NCBI GenBank assembly: GCA_012799255.1
Contig: JAAZLQ010000382.1
Location: forward strand, 1-6,771
Origin: Bacillota bacterium
Lineage (GTDB): Bacteria; Bacillota_G; Limnochordia; DTU010
Length of the DNA stretch: 6,771 bases
Reading direction: 5' to 3'
Shown here piece by piece: positions 2-6,771 of this stretch (position 1 is the first letter of the stretch; each line of letters opens with the position of its first letter). The notes below the pieces were generated by a model. It saw only the letters and a program-made list of their open reading frames with translations, ran no database searches and was not told where the DNA came from. A program made the translations under genes and the position numbers.

Positions 2-1816
2 AAGGAAGCTGAGAAGGTTACTAAACAGTCACCCACTGAAGCTCAAAAGAAGGCAGGCAACTATTCCAAAGGGAAGGTTTCCATAAGGGGATTCCCAATA
101 TCAATAGAAAATCCTGTTGGGTCAATTCGTAGTGGTATTGATAAGGATGGTAATGAGTGGAGCAACACCACTAAACATACTTATGGATATTTCCGTGGAA
201 CAGTTGGTAAAGATGGCGACCCAATAGATGTATATCTTGGAGATAACTTTGATGACTTTGATGTGTATGTGATTGATCAAATTGATCCAACGACACGTGC
301 ATTTGACGAGCACAAAGTTATGTTCGGGTTCAATACACCTGAGGAGGCCAAGGAAGCATATTTAAGCGAGTTTGAAGATGGTTGGGGTGGATTTGGTAGT
401 ATTACTACCATGACATTAAAATACTTCCAAAAATGGCTTTATAATCGCACATTAACACAACGTCCTGCAAATAGGTTGAAATTACAGATAGGAAATTCCA
501 TTGTATCTATTGGTACTGTGAATAAAGAGCCTATTATTGCACATGCTTCAATGATGGAAGAAGTTGTGGAAGGTGTCACACTAAAGAACATACAATCACA
601 AATCCCAAAGGAATTCGATGTCCTTATTCTTGAGATTGGGAGTCCTGGTGGCAATGTATTAGAAGGCTTCCGTATAATGGAGTATCTTAATGGATTAAGT
701 GAGCAGGGTAAAAGTGTGGTTACTGTGGTGTCGGCGAATGCTTATAGTATTGCATCTCTGATTATGTTGGTGGCAGATTATAGAGTGATAAGCAACTATG
801 GAGAAGTGATGATTCATAACCCAATGGTTCCAACTCTACAGTTTGCAGATGCCTCCACACTTGAGAAGTATGCTTCAGAATTAAGAGATCTTGAAAACGT
901 ATTAGTTCAATTGTATTGCATGTTCACTGGATTAGAGCCAGAGGTTATTAAGGGTATGATGTCTAAAGAGACATTCATTGGACCTGATGAAGCCGTAGAA
1001 CTTGGATTCATGGACGAAGTATTAAATATGAACAAGAAGCCGTATGTGTCGGCTTCAAAGTCAACTAAACATAAAGTAATTAACATGTCAAAAACAATTA
1101 ATATACTGAGACGAGTCATCAGTATGGTAAATGGCAGTGAATTCATCAACCAGGTGTATGATACTGTTGATGGAGAATCTATTGAAATTTTTCAATCTGA
1201 CCCATCTGGGTATAAGGTAGGGGATAGAACAAGTGTAGAAGAAGGTATTTTCAAACTTTCTGATGGAACTATCAAAGTTGATGATTATATCATCGTAGAA
1301 ATTGATAAGTCTGCAGCCGAAGCACCCGCAGAAGCTCCTGTCGTAGAAACTCCAGTGAGTGAATTCAATGTAGGTCCTGCACCAAAGAAACCAGTAGCCG
1401 AAGAAGTCCCCACAAGGGAAGTTCCAGTAGCTGAAGAAACTAAAGTAGTGGAAACACCTGTAGAAACTCCAGTAAGTGAAGAAATTCCAGTGGAGGAAGA
1501 AGGTGTGGTAGCTAAATTGCAAGCCGTGGTAAGCGAAATGCAAGAAACCATCAAGGGTCTTCAGGAGAAAATCACCGAAATGGCCAACCAGAACATTGAA
1601 GAGAAAGTTGTAGAAATTTCAAATGAGTTGAACAAGATGAAAGCAGAGAATCAAGAATTTGAAGAAATGGCCACTGAAGCCATTGACAAGATTGCTTCTC
1701 ATGCTTCATCTGTCTGGAATAGTGGTAAACCAGAGACCCCACAAATCCCACAGGGTAATAGTATTTTTAAGAGAGCGTTGGCTGCAAAGAAACTTGCAAC
1801 AGCTCGTAACCAATAG
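2..1816 (+). CDS. InPase-ClpP-scaffold fusion: phage prohead protease (5' partial)
   Basis: The frame is open from the window edge, so the N-terminus is missing; 604 residues are visible. A GTG at 263 would cut through a domain and is not the start. Residues about 20-146 match the phage polyvalent InPase (inorganic-pyrophosphatase-fold) domain: IENPVGSIRSG, TYGYFRGT, then DGDPIDV (71-77), which fits the pyrophosphatase signature D-x-D-P-x-D, then FDEHKVMFGF. Residues about 160-342 are a ClpP-like (S14/S49-type) protease: GSPGG oxyanion loop (213-217), probable catalytic Ser249 in NAYSIASLI, His272 in VMIHNP, and Glu323 where ClpP has Asp, in KETFIGPDEAVELGF. Residues 437-499 are Pro/Glu-rich with repeated ETPVSE, followed by a predicted coiled coil (about 500-570) and a basic end, KRALAAKKLATARNQ. 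By analogy with lambda C/Nu3 and Mu I/Z, the protein probably cleaves and scaffolds the procapsid before maturation. It sits directly before the capsid gene. Whether InPase hydrolyses pyrophosphate is unknown. Confidence 0.88.
   Translation, partial: KEAEKVTKQSPTEAQKKAGNYSKGKVSIRGFPISIENPVGSIRSGIDKDGNEWSNTTKHTYGYFRGTVGKDGDPIDVYLGDNFDDFDVYVIDQIDPTTRAFDEHKVMFGFNTPEEAKEAYLSEFEDGWGGFGSITTMTLKYFQKWLYNRTLTQRPANRLKLQIGNSIVSIGTVNKEPIIAHASMMEEVVEGVTLKNIQSQIPKEFDVLILEIGSPGGNVLEGFRIMEYLNGLSEQGKSVVTVVSANAYSIASLIMLVADYRVISNYGEVMIHNPMVPTLQFADASTLEKYASELRDLENVLVQLYCMFTGLEPEVIKGMMSKETFIGPDEAVELGFMDEVLNMNKKPYVSASKSTKHKVINMSKTINILRRVISMVNGSEFINQVYDTVDGESIEIFQSDPSGYKVGDRTSVEEGIFKLSDGTIKVDDYIIVEIDKSAAEAPAEAPVVETPVSEFNVGPAPKKPVAEEVPTREVPVAEETKVVETPVETPVSEEIPVEEEGVVAKLQAVVSEMQETIKGLQEKITEMANQNIEEKVVEISNELNKMKAENQEFEEMATEAIDKIASHASSVWNSGKPETPQIPQGNSIFKRALAAKKLATARNQ
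1085..1816 (+). other. Possible internal start giving a separate scaffold protein
   Basis: An in-frame ATG at 1085, just after the protease domain ends, opens a 243-residue product starting MSKTINILRRVISMVNG. This looks like a natural N-terminus, and the product would hold only the small folded segment, the acidic Pro-rich linker and the coiled coil. Lambda (Nu3 within C) and Mu (Z within I) make their scaffold from such nested starts. The A-rich stretch before the ATG (AAACATAAAGTAATTAAC) suits Bacteroidota initiation, but there is no Shine-Dalgarno sequence. This is an inference from architecture, not shown by the sequence alone. Confidence 0.35.
1343..1480 (+). repeat. Imperfect repeats in the Pro/Glu-rich linker
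   Basis: The 21-nt element GTAGAAACTCCAGTRAGTGA(A) occurs at 1343-1363 and again at 1460-1480, coding VETPVSE both times. Shorter relatives (GAAGTTCCAGTAG, GAAACACCTGTAG, GAAATTCCAGTGG) lie between and after them. The linker is acidic and probably unstructured, joining the protease to the coiled-coil scaffold. Such repeats easily expand or shrink by slippage. Confidence 0.7.
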
Positions 1817-1854: not shown

Positions 1855-2835
1855 ATGGCATTTAATGTAGGAAGTGCTCCTATTGGAGTATTAGCAAGAG
1901 CCTTGACAGGCAACGTATTTATTGAAAAATCATTGGCTTACATGAACGAAGGCGACAAAGATGGCTACAATGCTTATAAGCATGACATCCGCAATGTTCT
2001 TCGTGCACGCAGCGTCAATCCGGCTGCATCAGTGAGCAATACCAGTGAAAAGAAAGCATTCAAACGTACTTTGGCAGTCGTTGAATCGTTCGAAACTTTT
2101 GATCCGGCTGATTACCACCAATACTGGAGAGAATACCAGCCAGAGGGTGAATTTCAGTGGGAGGGTCTTCCAGCCGAAGTTCAGGCCACTTTGGAAGAAT
2201 TATTCTTGGGTAATGCTGCCGAAGCAGCTGAAGATGCATTGACTAATGGTAATGCAGATATTTCATTGACTGGTCTTATACCTCAGTTGGAATCTCCAGC
2301 CCTCACAAATCTTAATGGTGCTATGCCAACACCTCTTCAAGTTGTTGAAAATACTACCATTGGATATCGTAAATCATCTGCAGCAACCCTGACTGTTGAT
2401 AACATCTTTGACGAATTGGAATTGCTTATATCTAAGCAAAACCGAGCAATGCGTAAACGCCCAGGACGGAAGTTCATGGTGTCTAATGCAACTGCCGATC
2501 TTATAGCTCAAGCTCAAAGAAATCTTCAATACAAAGGTGTTGATATTACTGACGAAGGTGTAATGCGTTATGCAGGTTTCGAAATCGTAGCTAATCCTTC
2601 ATTCCCAGATGACGCCATTCTTTTGGCTTCTATGACTGGTGATTTCAAAACTGATGCTATCCAATTGGGTACTTCATTGAGCTCAGATTTCAATAACCTT
2701 ACAGTTGATCGTGTTTCTAACTTCGGTCGTGAGTGGGGTATGCTGTTGACTTTTGCACTTGACATCTTCCTGGTACGCCCAGAAGAAGTGTGCTATAGAA
2801 CTGCATCAGTTATTGCTGATGAACCTGCAACATAA
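1855..2835 (+). CDS. Major capsid protein, HK97 fold
   Basis: A 326-residue protein, within the usual HK97-type capsid size range, placed directly after the protease-scaffold gene as expected. Visible features are an N-arm (1-60), an E-loop-like segment rich in aromatics (FETFDPADYHQYWREY, 80-94), a helix-rich A/P region with a spine-helix-like stretch (NIFDELELLISKQNRAM, 183-199) followed by GRKFMVSN, then AGFEIVANPSFPDDAILL (240-257), and a closing region with VDRVSNFGREWGMLLTF. The start ATG at 1855 follows an A-rich leader. Arginine is often CGT/CGC here, while the fibre genes favour AGA/AGG; this suits high expression. The protein would form the icosahedral shell and be processed or expanded with the upstream protease. 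Its stop is TAA followed by C, and the same frame continues into an Ig-like domain (see 2836-3093). The family call is by pattern and gene order. Confidence 0.88.
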   Translation: MAFNVGSAPIGVLARALTGNVFIEKSLAYMNEGDKDGYNAYKHDIRNVLRARSVNPAASVSNTSEKKAFKRTLAVVESFETFDPADYHQYWREYQPEGEFQWEGLPAEVQATLEELFLGNAAEAAEDALTNGNADISLTGLIPQLESPALTNLNGAMPTPLQVVENTTIGYRKSSAATLTVDNIFDELELLISKQNRAMRKRPGRKFMVSNATADLIAQAQRNLQYKGVDITDEGVMRYAGFEIVANPSFPDDAILLASMTGDFKTDAIQLGTSLSSDFNNLTVDRVSNFGREWGMLLTFALDIFLVRPEEVCYRTASVIADEPAT

Positions 2836-2840
2836 CATAA
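2830..2840 (+). promoter_or_regulatory. Candidate stop-codon readthrough site at the capsid gene end
   Basis: The codons read ACA TAA CAT AAA. The TAA at 2833-2835 ends the capsid frame, yet the same frame continues at once into an intact domain. C in the +4 position is known to make bacterial termination less efficient than U. CATAA is repeated in tandem (2831-2835, 2836-2840); the second TAA is in another frame. Whether ribosomes read through, or whether the TAA is a mutation or sequencing error, cannot be told from this window. Confidence 0.4.
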
Positions 2841-3093
2841 AGTCACTTTTTCAGCTGGCGAAAACGGAACAGTGACTGCCACAGCTGATGGTGTAGCAAT
2901 TACAAGCCTTGATGAAGTCGCAGAAGGTAGTGATTTAGTATTTACAGCAGTACCTGAGTCAACATATAAAGTAGCATCTTGGACTCTTAATGGTGAAGTT
3001 GTTAGTGACAATGTTACTAATACCTTAACTGTTGAAAATATTAGTGCTCCGGTAGTAGTATCAGTTGCATTTGAATCAGCTGAATTAGATTAA
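2836..3093 (+). CDS. InlB-B-repeat/Ig-like domain, in frame after the capsid stop
   Basis: Eighty-five residues in the same frame as the capsid protein, starting HKVTFSAGENGTVTA directly after its TAA. The pattern (GTVTA, GSDLVFTAVP, YKVASWTLNGEVV, NTLTVENI, VVVSVAFE) is that of the divergent InlB B-repeat domain, a small beta-sandwich or beta-grasp-like adhesion module common in Bacteroidota and Firmicutes surface proteins. There is no ATG, GTG or TTG in frame between the stop and a GTG at 2872, and starting there would remove the first beta strand. The domain is thus best explained as a capsid C-terminal extension made by readthrough (412 residues in all), or as a former fusion split by a nonsense change. 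Ig-like domains on phage heads are known, in some phages through recoding, and can bind mucin glycans. It ends shortly before a strong terminator. Confidence 0.75.
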   Translation, partial: HKVTFSAGENGTVTATADGVAITSLDEVAEGSDLVFTAVPESTYKVASWTLNGEVVSDNVTNTLTVENISAPVVVSVAFESAELD

Positions 3094-3112
3094 TTAGTAT
3101 TTTAATACTAAT
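3093..3112 (+). other. AT-rich perfect inverted repeat
   Basis: ATTAGTATT-TT-AATACTAAT overlaps the last base of the Ig-like domain's stop codon. It could form a weak stem of about 8 bp in the mRNA, only 8 nt before the GC-rich terminator stem. It may act as an RNA 3'-end element or protein site; no function can be assigned. Confidence 0.5.
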
Positions 3113-3120
3113 CATATAAT

Positions 3121-3149
3121 GGGGGAGGGAATGATCCCTCCCCTTTTTT
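3121..3149 (+). terminator. Rho-independent terminator after the capsid block
   Basis: GGGGAGGGA (3122-3130) pairs perfectly with TCCCTCCCC (3135-3143) around an ATGA loop, and six T follow (3144-3149). This is a strong canonical intrinsic terminator. It lies 28 nt after the Ig-like domain's stop and 18 nt before the next start codon, so it separates the capsid block from the fibre block. It would cap capsid transcripts or lower expression of the genes behind it. On the opposite strand no T-run follows, so it acts in one direction only. Confidence 0.9.
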
Positions 3150-3167
3150 ATTTAATAAAGGGTAACA

Positions 3168-3740
3168 ATGAATTGTGATGATATAATCGTAGCAGGTATC
3201 TCTAAAGATTGTGCTTCTATTAATGCTCCGGTCGGTGCAGATAAGGATCTAATTCTCGTTAATTATGAGGATTTCGACTATGCTGGAACAGTGGATCCAT
3301 TGAATAGAGAAGCTGATGATACCAATAATAATATTGATGGCCTTACAGCTATCAAATTAAAACAAGGTGCAAAACAGTACACATTTGAAGGTACAGACTA
3401 TTCAGTTATCCCCTCCACAATTGGAGAGGTCAAAGAAACTGGCGATATGTGGTATGTACATTCAATAGGCTTTATTGTTTATTCTAAAAGAGCAGCCGAT
3501 AGGAGGACTCTTAGAGCACTTGGTAATTCACGTGTAATCGCTATCACTAAAGATCGTTCAACTGGATTGTATGAACTCTTCGGAATGGAACATGGTTTGA
3601 AGGTAGGAGAACTTTCCCGTGAATATGTAGGTAGTGAGAATTCAAACTTCTATTCTGTTACAATTCAGACACCAGATGTTGCAGTTGTACGTGAATCAGG
3701 TCTTCCTGAATTAGCTCTATCAATCGAAGTAGCAGAATAA
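3168..3740 (+). CDS. Phage structural protein, possible tail-tube-like or head/tail accessory protein (190 aa)
   Basis: I do not recognise a named family with certainty. The protein is soluble-looking, acidic and beta-rich, with no signal peptide or membrane segment. It opens MNCDDIIVAGISKDC, a type of start I associate with uncharacterised structural genes of Bacteroidales phages. Residues 96-180 (YVHSIGFIVYSKRAADRR to RESGLP) align without large gaps with residues 72-155 of the next gene, including the shared H-(S/A), N-x-x-V-I, LF, SV and RE-x-LP positions, so the two are likely paralogues. The start ATG at 3168 comes 18 nt after the terminator, with a modest AAAGGG about 5-10 nt upstream. 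It is first in a four-gene run that ends in fibre genes. A tail-tube-like, baseplate-like or head-decoration role is possible; choosing between them needs structure prediction. Confidence 0.6.
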   Translation: MNCDDIIVAGISKDCASINAPVGADKDLILVNYEDFDYAGTVDPLNREADDTNNNIDGLTAIKLKQGAKQYTFEGTDYSVIPSTIGEVKETGDMWYVHSIGFIVYSKRAADRRTLRALGNSRVIAITKDRSTGLYELFGMEHGLKVGELSREYVGSENSNFYSVTIQTPDVAVVRESGLPELALSIEVAE

Positions 3741-5428: not shown

Positions 5429-6771
5429 ATGAGTAGATTAATAGCAGGAGTTCAACCACTCATCCTAACACAAGCAGGACAGCGTCCAACCATACCAAAT
5501 CCTCCCACAATCATGCCTGACGACAATAGGTTTGATAAATCAAGGGATTTGATGGTTGGACAGTTGGCATATAATGTTGTGGATGATGAGTGGTATTACA
5601 GAGGGTATTCCTCCATACAAACTCTACTGAAACCTTCCACAATCACTGTTGGACAGGTAGAGTCATGGCAAAGTAACAAAGTATATAAGGCAGGGAATGT
5701 ATTCGTATCATTTGTGAATCCATCTTCACCAGATGAACAGTTCCACAATGAAGCAATTTACAGGTGTAAGGAGACAACTCTGGTAGGACAATCCCCAGAG
5801 ACACACCCTGAGAAGTGGGTGTATCAAGGACAGAGTGTAACAGTAGACCCAACCACCGTCATAGAGACTGTAACGATAGAGACAGCCTCATCTTACAACC
5901 CTACGAAAGAAGGTGGTTATACTGAGGGGAGTATTGTTTCATACAAGAACGAATCTTCACCTGATCCACAATTCCAAAGACTGGAATTATACCTTGCAAA
6001 TTCAGATATCCCACAAGGTGTATCACCAGAGGATTCTGCGGAGTGGATATTTAAGGGGCAAGAAATTGTTGAGCAAATTACCTATCCAACTGTAAGGGTC
6101 AAGAGTTCTATCTCCACTATGCAAGCCATAGTAAACAATATGGATGGAGATATCACAATCATCCACACAACTGGAGAGATATATGAATATGATTCTGAAG
6201 CTACATCAGGAGTAAAGCCTAATAATGTGTTAGCGACAGACCCAGGACGTTGGGTGTTGGTAGTTCCTCATAAAGTAGGAGAAGCTCCAATTGATGGGAA
6301 CCAGTATGTAAGGAAAGATGGAGAATGGGAAGCAGTAGAATCAATAGAGCTTGGTGAAACATCAACTACTGCTTACAGAGGGGATAGGGGGAAGTTAGCA
6401 TATGAACATAGTCTAACTACTCACGCACCATCTAACGCACAAAAGAATAGTGACATAACCAAAAGTGAAATAGAAGCTAAATTAGTTGGTAACATTACTA
6501 CTCACAGTCACACAGTAACTAAAGATGATGTAGGACTTGGAAATGTAGAAAATAAATCTTCTTCTACTATTAGAAGTGAAATTACTAACACCGATGTTAC
6601 TGATGCATTAGGTTTTACTCCTATGGATGCTTCTTTAAAGGGAACTAATAATGGTGTAGCTGAATTAGATGCAGCTGGTAAAGTTCCTGCTAGTCAATTA
6701 CCTAGCTATGTAGATGATGTTTTAGAATTTGCTTCATTATCTGATTTTCCTTCAACAGGAGAAAGTGGTAA
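5429..6771 (+). CDS. Large tail-fibre-type protein (3' partial)
   Basis: ATG at 5429 follows the previous stop by 3 nt; the frame stays open to the window edge, giving 447 residues without the C-terminus. Order of parts: an N-terminal segment with a fibre-like WYYRGYSSIQ (55-64); two tandem carbohydrate-binding-like modules (about 74-134 and 155-211); an Ig- or jelly-roll-like section with SISTMQAIVNNMDGDITIIH and DPGRWVLVVP (227-280); and NQYVRKDGEWEAVE. Familiar fibre motifs follow: STTAYRGDRGKLAYEH, THAPSNAQKNSDITKSEIEA, VTKDDVGLGNVENKS (363-377), ALGFTPMD, NNGVAELDAAGKVPASQLP (407-425) and SYVDDVLEFASLSDFPSTGE. The last motif usually comes before more fibre or receptor-binding sequence, so much of the protein is likely missing. 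Role: trimeric fibre for adsorption to surface glycans. A codon-use shift near 6480 suggests a mosaic. Confidence 0.82.
   Translation, partial: MSRLIAGVQPLILTQAGQRPTIPNPPTIMPDDNRFDKSRDLMVGQLAYNVVDDEWYYRGYSSIQTLLKPSTITVGQVESWQSNKVYKAGNVFVSFVNPSSPDEQFHNEAIYRCKETTLVGQSPETHPEKWVYQGQSVTVDPTTVIETVTIETASSYNPTKEGGYTEGSIVSYKNESSPDPQFQRLELYLANSDIPQGVSPEDSAEWIFKGQEIVEQITYPTVRVKSSISTMQAIVNNMDGDITIIHTTGEIYEYDSEATSGVKPNNVLATDPGRWVLVVPHKVGEAPIDGNQYVRKDGEWEAVESIELGETSTTAYRGDRGKLAYEHSLTTHAPSNAQKNSDITKSEIEAKLVGNITTHSHTVTKDDVGLGNVENKSSSTIRSEITNTDVTDALGFTPMDASLKGTNNGVAELDAAGKVPASQLPSYVDDVLEFASLSDFPSTGESG
5648..6061 (+). repeat. Two tandem carbohydrate-binding-like modules in the fibre
   Basis: The pattern repeats at protein level: W/Y-x(6-9)-Y-x-x-G-x-V-x-S then SSPDEQF, Y-R-C, SPETHPEKWVYQGQ (residues 74-134), and ASSYNPTKEGGYTEGSIVSY, SSPDPQF, LYLAN, SPEDSAEWIFKGQ (155-211). 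Spacing of aromatics and the W-x-x-x-GQ end recall CBM5/12-type (chitin-binding-like) modules found on phage fibres. The DNA copies have diverged, so the duplication is old. Sugar specificity cannot be predicted. Confidence 0.6.

Follow-up and report, generated by a model that had tools for sequence, protein, structure and literature searches.

An in-frame stop between a phage major capsid protein and an InlB-type β domain, and the direct fusion of the two in a close relative

In the window, by which we mean the whole 6,771-nucleotide stretch of DNA analysed here, the gene for a phage major capsid protein is separated by a single in-frame TAA from an intact open frame for a divergent InlB B-repeat domain, and a relative with a 96%-identical capsid protein carries the same domain as a direct fusion. 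The explanation that fits best, to which we would give a probability of about 0.6, is that a recent stop in a capsid-domain fusion has returned a decorated capsid to the plain form of its family. According to this proposal, in one lineage the major capsid protein would have gained an InlB-type β domain as an in-frame C-terminal extension, upstream of the terminator, such that in the fused state each capsid subunit would bear an extra domain. In the strain represented by the window a stop would then have arisen in the linker of the fused frame, bringing the capsid protein back near to the usual length of the family and leaving a domain that would still be transcribed, but not, or hardly, translated. 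The net outcome would be a head that has gone from decorated to plain, as a change at the level of the strain. We infer that the domain is located on the surface, that it has a binding role and that it goes untranslated in the window strain.

The capsid gene, its stop and the domain frame

The gene upstream of the stop (1855..2835, forward strand) encodes the major capsid protein of the Cellulophaga phage phiST/phi13:1 group. Its product matches phrog_20525 with an E-value of 3.9e-154, residues 1-321 of 326 being aligned over profile positions 1-328, and is 68% identical to the structural protein of Cellulophaga phage phi13:1, for which MS/MS evidence is cited in the phage record. Eight records in the annotated phage collection match the protein: six from Cellulophaga and Tenacibaculum phages at 67-68% identity (phiST, phi13:1, phi19:2 and Larrie), and two from unannotated faecal phages at 23-25% identity. 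The records of phi13:1 and Larrie place these phages in Cbastvirus. At the level of structure, the matches to HK97-type capsids and encapsulins are weak: in a Foldseek search with the model of the fused relative, the 50 listed of 191 matches are all capsids of phages or GTAs, encapsulins or, in one case, an engineered nanocage, the best E-value being 1.4e-3. That model is itself weak (mean pLDDT 50.4, and below 50 in the domain part) and does not allow the position of the C-terminus on the shell to be read off.

The layout of the junction is as an earlier sequence-only reading of this DNA had described it. The capsid frame is closed after 326 residues by the TAA at 2833-2835, and the same frame is open directly 3' of it through codons 2836-3090 (85 residues) up to a second TAA at 3091-3093, all on the forward strand. 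An open frame of 85 codons is expected by chance in the window with a probability between about 2e-4, from the rate of out-of-frame stops, and 2e-3, from base composition. In codon usage the domain frame resembles the window's own genes (score 0.36, compared with 0.16-0.27), but one reverse frame also scores high (0.28); its third-position GC content is 0.14, lower than the 0.23-0.32 of the other genes of the window. The absence of a start codon claimed by the same reading also holds, as no ATG, GTG or TTG lies upstream of the GTG at 2872 within the 85-codon frame. Initiation at this GTG (2872..3093, forward strand) gives a product of 73 residues without residues 1-12 of the domain frame.

The downstream frame (2836..3093) is a genuine PF18998 domain. 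The 85-residue piece matches this divergent InlB B-repeat (Flg_new_2) family with an E-value of 4.9e-9 and a score of 36.5 bits against a curated cut-off of 23.6, covering positions 2-71 of the 73 in the profile. Its AlphaFold2 model is all-β with a mean pLDDT of 94.9, and the first strand is formed by residues 2-7, such that a product begun at the GTG would lose this strand and the start of the second. Of the label InlB-B-repeat/Ig-like given previously, the first half is more precisely a divergent InlB B-repeat; as to the second, the solved structures nearest to the model include Ig domains, with middling scores only. Of the searches of solved structures by sequence, one had a weak best E-value of 0.054 and another returned no match.

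Outside this phage lineage the domain was encountered at bacterial loci. A search of phage records with tblastn gave no match to it, and a scan of genome contigs recovered three bacterial loci of the PF18998 type. The one examined further, from a Chitinispirillia metagenome-assembled genome (L009), is 47% identical to the window domain and has three tandem copies of PF18998; unlike the window protein, it is cellular, carries a carbohydrate-binding domain and is no capsid protein. Two proteins of the BFVD collection that are named as tail tube proteins (A0A8S5P9Y9 and A0A8S5RL27) match the fold of the domain weakly, with E-values of 0.1 and 0.2, and the InlB-type module may therefore be present on other virion parts too. 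Literature searches that paired phage with the InlB B-repeat or Flg_new_2, or nonsense changes with capsid domains of the Ig-like type, listed nothing relevant, and in the part of PMC10013915 consulted, on phage Larrie, no such domain is mentioned.

Relatives with and without the domain

The relative in question (P0001; 410 residues, source jgi) differs from the window at 12 of 326 capsid residues (314/326 identical) and continues in frame, with a sense codon at the position of the window's stop, into the same domain. This bears out the claim that the domain belongs to the capsid, and of the explanations considered in the sequence-only reading it is the recent nonsense change in a fusion that fits best. 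Within the domain, 6 of 82 aligned residues differ, in addition to one codon of length and the very end. At the junction two residues of the relative replace the last capsid codon and the stop of the window, which amounts to at least three base differences in six, as deduced from the residues of a relative available as a protein sequence.

An assembly or sequencing artefact, in which the real genome would be fused as in this relative, is improbable in our estimate. The existence of so close a fused relative is in its favour; against it, 11 further capsid residues differ between the window and this relative, and the 73-residue frame from the GTG at 2872 is recorded on six contigs in the protein database (P0123). 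Gene callers would normally report such a frame only if it is closed upstream. The stop is probably real, and a single miscall unlikely, given these six contigs, which may not be independent samples, together with the difference of at least three bases from P0001; the suspicion of a sequencing error is weakened to the same extent.

A protein search with the capsid sequence gave 267 matches, of which the best 120 were examined. P0001, which stands for a cluster of 10 sequences, is far closer than the rest among the matches listed, the next being at most 76% identical over most of the query; a further protein (P0084) reaches 78% over 47% of the query. No separate entry among the matches listed corresponds to the capsid protein of the window itself, which may lie in the cluster of P0001. 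Of the 120, 117 have a recognizable C-terminal motif, and 116 of these end 7-11 residues after it, P0001 alone running on past it, for 97 residues. The capsid protein of the window ends 13 residues past the motif, compared with 7-11 in the relatives. Three proteins of 327-328 residues (P0068, P0079 and P0099) are without the motif and lie outside this count. Three longer homologues (P0084, P0098 and P0116; 447-449 residues) are without a C-terminal domain and contain, as judged by eye, some 120 residues inserted in their interior. P0084 fits locus L007 and matches no Pfam family at an E-value of 0.01. A search with the C-terminus of P0001 revealed no second capsid fusion, its three matches being P0001 itself and two non-capsid proteins with leucine-rich-repeat families.

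The same picture is seen at the DNA level, where the capsid gene is followed by the domain in none of six distinct related phages (seven loci); instead, a hairpin, recognized by eye, comes after the capsid stop, and about 70-110 nt separate that stop from the start of the next gene. Scans of viral contigs contributed five capsid loci on four distinct contigs, 64-78% identical in the best segment and without the domain; another hit from these scans (L008) was set aside as an unrelated match. A separate scan of genome contigs yielded no capsid relative. The Cellulophaga phages phiST, phi13:1 and phi19:2 and the Tenacibaculum phage Larrie have their capsid family in common with the window, and phi13:1 and Larrie differ from both P0001 and the window in having no domain behind the capsid gene.

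As the plain capsid is common among the relatives inspected and the fusion is found in this lineage alone, this lineage probably acquired the domain at the C-terminus of its capsid protein, and in the window strain the domain was probably cut off at the linker. The simplest order of events, as judged from one relative known as a protein only, would be fusion first and stop second, since the domain, lacking a proper start, is unlikely to have functioned earlier as a gene of its own. The domain is undecayed: it has no further stop and differs in length from that of P0001 by one whole codon, and it scores higher against Pfam than the fused copy does, although the two figures are not fully comparable (36.5 bits for the isolated piece, 26.8 for the whole of P0001). 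Such a state is compatible with a stop of recent date as well as with continued use at a low level, and to that extent counts against the reading of a lost domain.

A capsid-fused adhesion-type domain is thus present in a phage group in which none of the other members inspected has one, and the same type of phage appears to have been caught both with and without a stop between capsid and domain. Should the stop prove to be a genuine polymorphism, the value of capsid decoration could be examined by comparing the two forms, which would make up a natural pair.

Translation across or behind the stop

The sequence-only reading had favoured read-through of the UAA, by which a small share of the capsid subunits would be extended to give a sparse decoration, and had called the stop context, TAAC, a weak one. 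We regard such read-through, whether programmed or tolerated, as unlikely, and as a poorer explanation than a stop newly arisen in a fusion. It would suit the presence of an intact domain, modelled with confidence and lying in frame immediately 3' of the stop, the coincidence of the stop with the domain boundary, and the partial Ig-like capsid extensions made by frameshifting in other phages (PMC5009743, in part). Conservation of the stop along with the frame behind it would be a further point in its favour; the one domain-bearing relative, P0001, however, has a sense codon there, and none of the six others has the domain; no other lineage combining stop and domain was found among the relatives searched.

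The RNA 3' of the stop is equivocal. Dinucleotide shuffles reach the native folding energy in 3-18% of cases for 3' segments of 42-60 nt, the segments of 42 and 60 nt being beaten by only 3.2% and 4.6% of shuffles, and the 60-nt segment is in the best 2% of segments of the window. Against this, folding is ordinary in three segments (z +0.60, -0.82 and -0.89), and over lengths of 42-90 nt the share of window segments that fold as well as the post-stop RNA ranges from 2% to 19% (8%, 8%, 15%, 11% and 19% at 42, 45, 50, 75 and 90 nt). There is also a 7-bp stem starting 5 nt 3' of the stop, but when longer contexts are folded its pairing probability does not exceed 0.07. The best figures, at 42 and 60 nt, come from several lengths tried without correction and amount to a faint hint of structure. 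The case for ochre read-through is accordingly weakened by the sense codon in P0001, the lack of a second lineage with both stop and domain, and an RNA structure that is weak or ordinary.

A related proposal, in which decoration is controlled by one codon, the fused form bearing the domain on every subunit and the stop form on a few by leaky UAA termination, seems to us distinctly doubtful. Were the stop leaky, it would constitute a recoding route for tailed-phage heads, and true read-through would mean that a dsDNA phage head relies on an ochre codon being read through, in place of the frameshifts already known. In the portion of the literature on phage capsid and virion read-through that was surveyed, we found no stop read-through in tailed-phage heads.

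Most improbable of all is a separate small domain protein, made by ribosomes that terminate at the capsid stop and re-initiate at the GTG at 2872. The 73-residue frame is present and retains its PF18998 match; its product would, however, lack the strand elements described above, and a separate gene of this kind is found at the locus in none of the six related phages.

The direct display of Ig-like domains in major capsid proteins is described in PMC10385173, which cites Fraser et al. 2006; P0001 is the same kind of direct fusion, with an InlB-type domain, and the window copy differs in being cut off by a stop. In phage T3 and Lactobacillus phage A2, Ig-like capsid extensions are made by -1 frameshifting, with in-frame decoding as the alternative, and capsid-gene frameshifting is also known in the Listeria phages A118, A500 and PSA (both from part of PMC5009743). 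These systems resemble the window in having a domain behind a virion protein, the translation of which is separated from that of the main product. They differ in needing a frameshift, whereas the window domain lies in the same frame behind a stop with no recoding signal established, and is fused directly in P0001.

Other devices were considered and rejected. An alternative code with TAA as a sense codon is contradicted by the TAAs that also end frames at 3093, 3740, 4563 and 5425, and by the frame behind 3093, which closes again within a few codons. For a slippage switch, the only repeat overlapping the stop is a 5-base tandem, and the gain or loss of one unit, worked out by hand, keeps the stop in place. 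For an invertible switch, the inverted repeats near the junction are short. The 5-base tandem (2830-2840) also covers the codon after the stop and may mark a local copying event that created the stop.

The surrounding genes

The window is a head gene block with the order protease, capsid, domain frame, terminator and further genes, those up to 3740 lying on the forward strand. It is probably an entire metagenome contig, as the longest of the six contigs on which the 73-residue frame is recorded has exactly 6771 bases. The head maturation protease gene (2..1816, its 5' end outside the window) matches Pfam PF18823 and PF00574 as well as phrog_20705 and several head maturation protease PHROGs; an inorganic-pyrophosphatase-like domain (PF18823) is N-terminal and is followed in one frame by the ClpP-type protease. 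In phi13:1 the position just before the capsid gene is occupied by a 2067-base gene annotated as a putative tail protein. The domain frame is followed by an intrinsic terminator (3121..3150; z -3.62 for 3094-3160) and then by the next structural gene (3168..3740), which matches the head and packaging family phrog_19979 with an E-value of 2.4e-78. Further downstream, a protein with a Fib_succ_major domain (PF09603; 4565-5425), possibly a surface-binding protein, adjoins a gene with tail-type PHROG matches (5429-6769).
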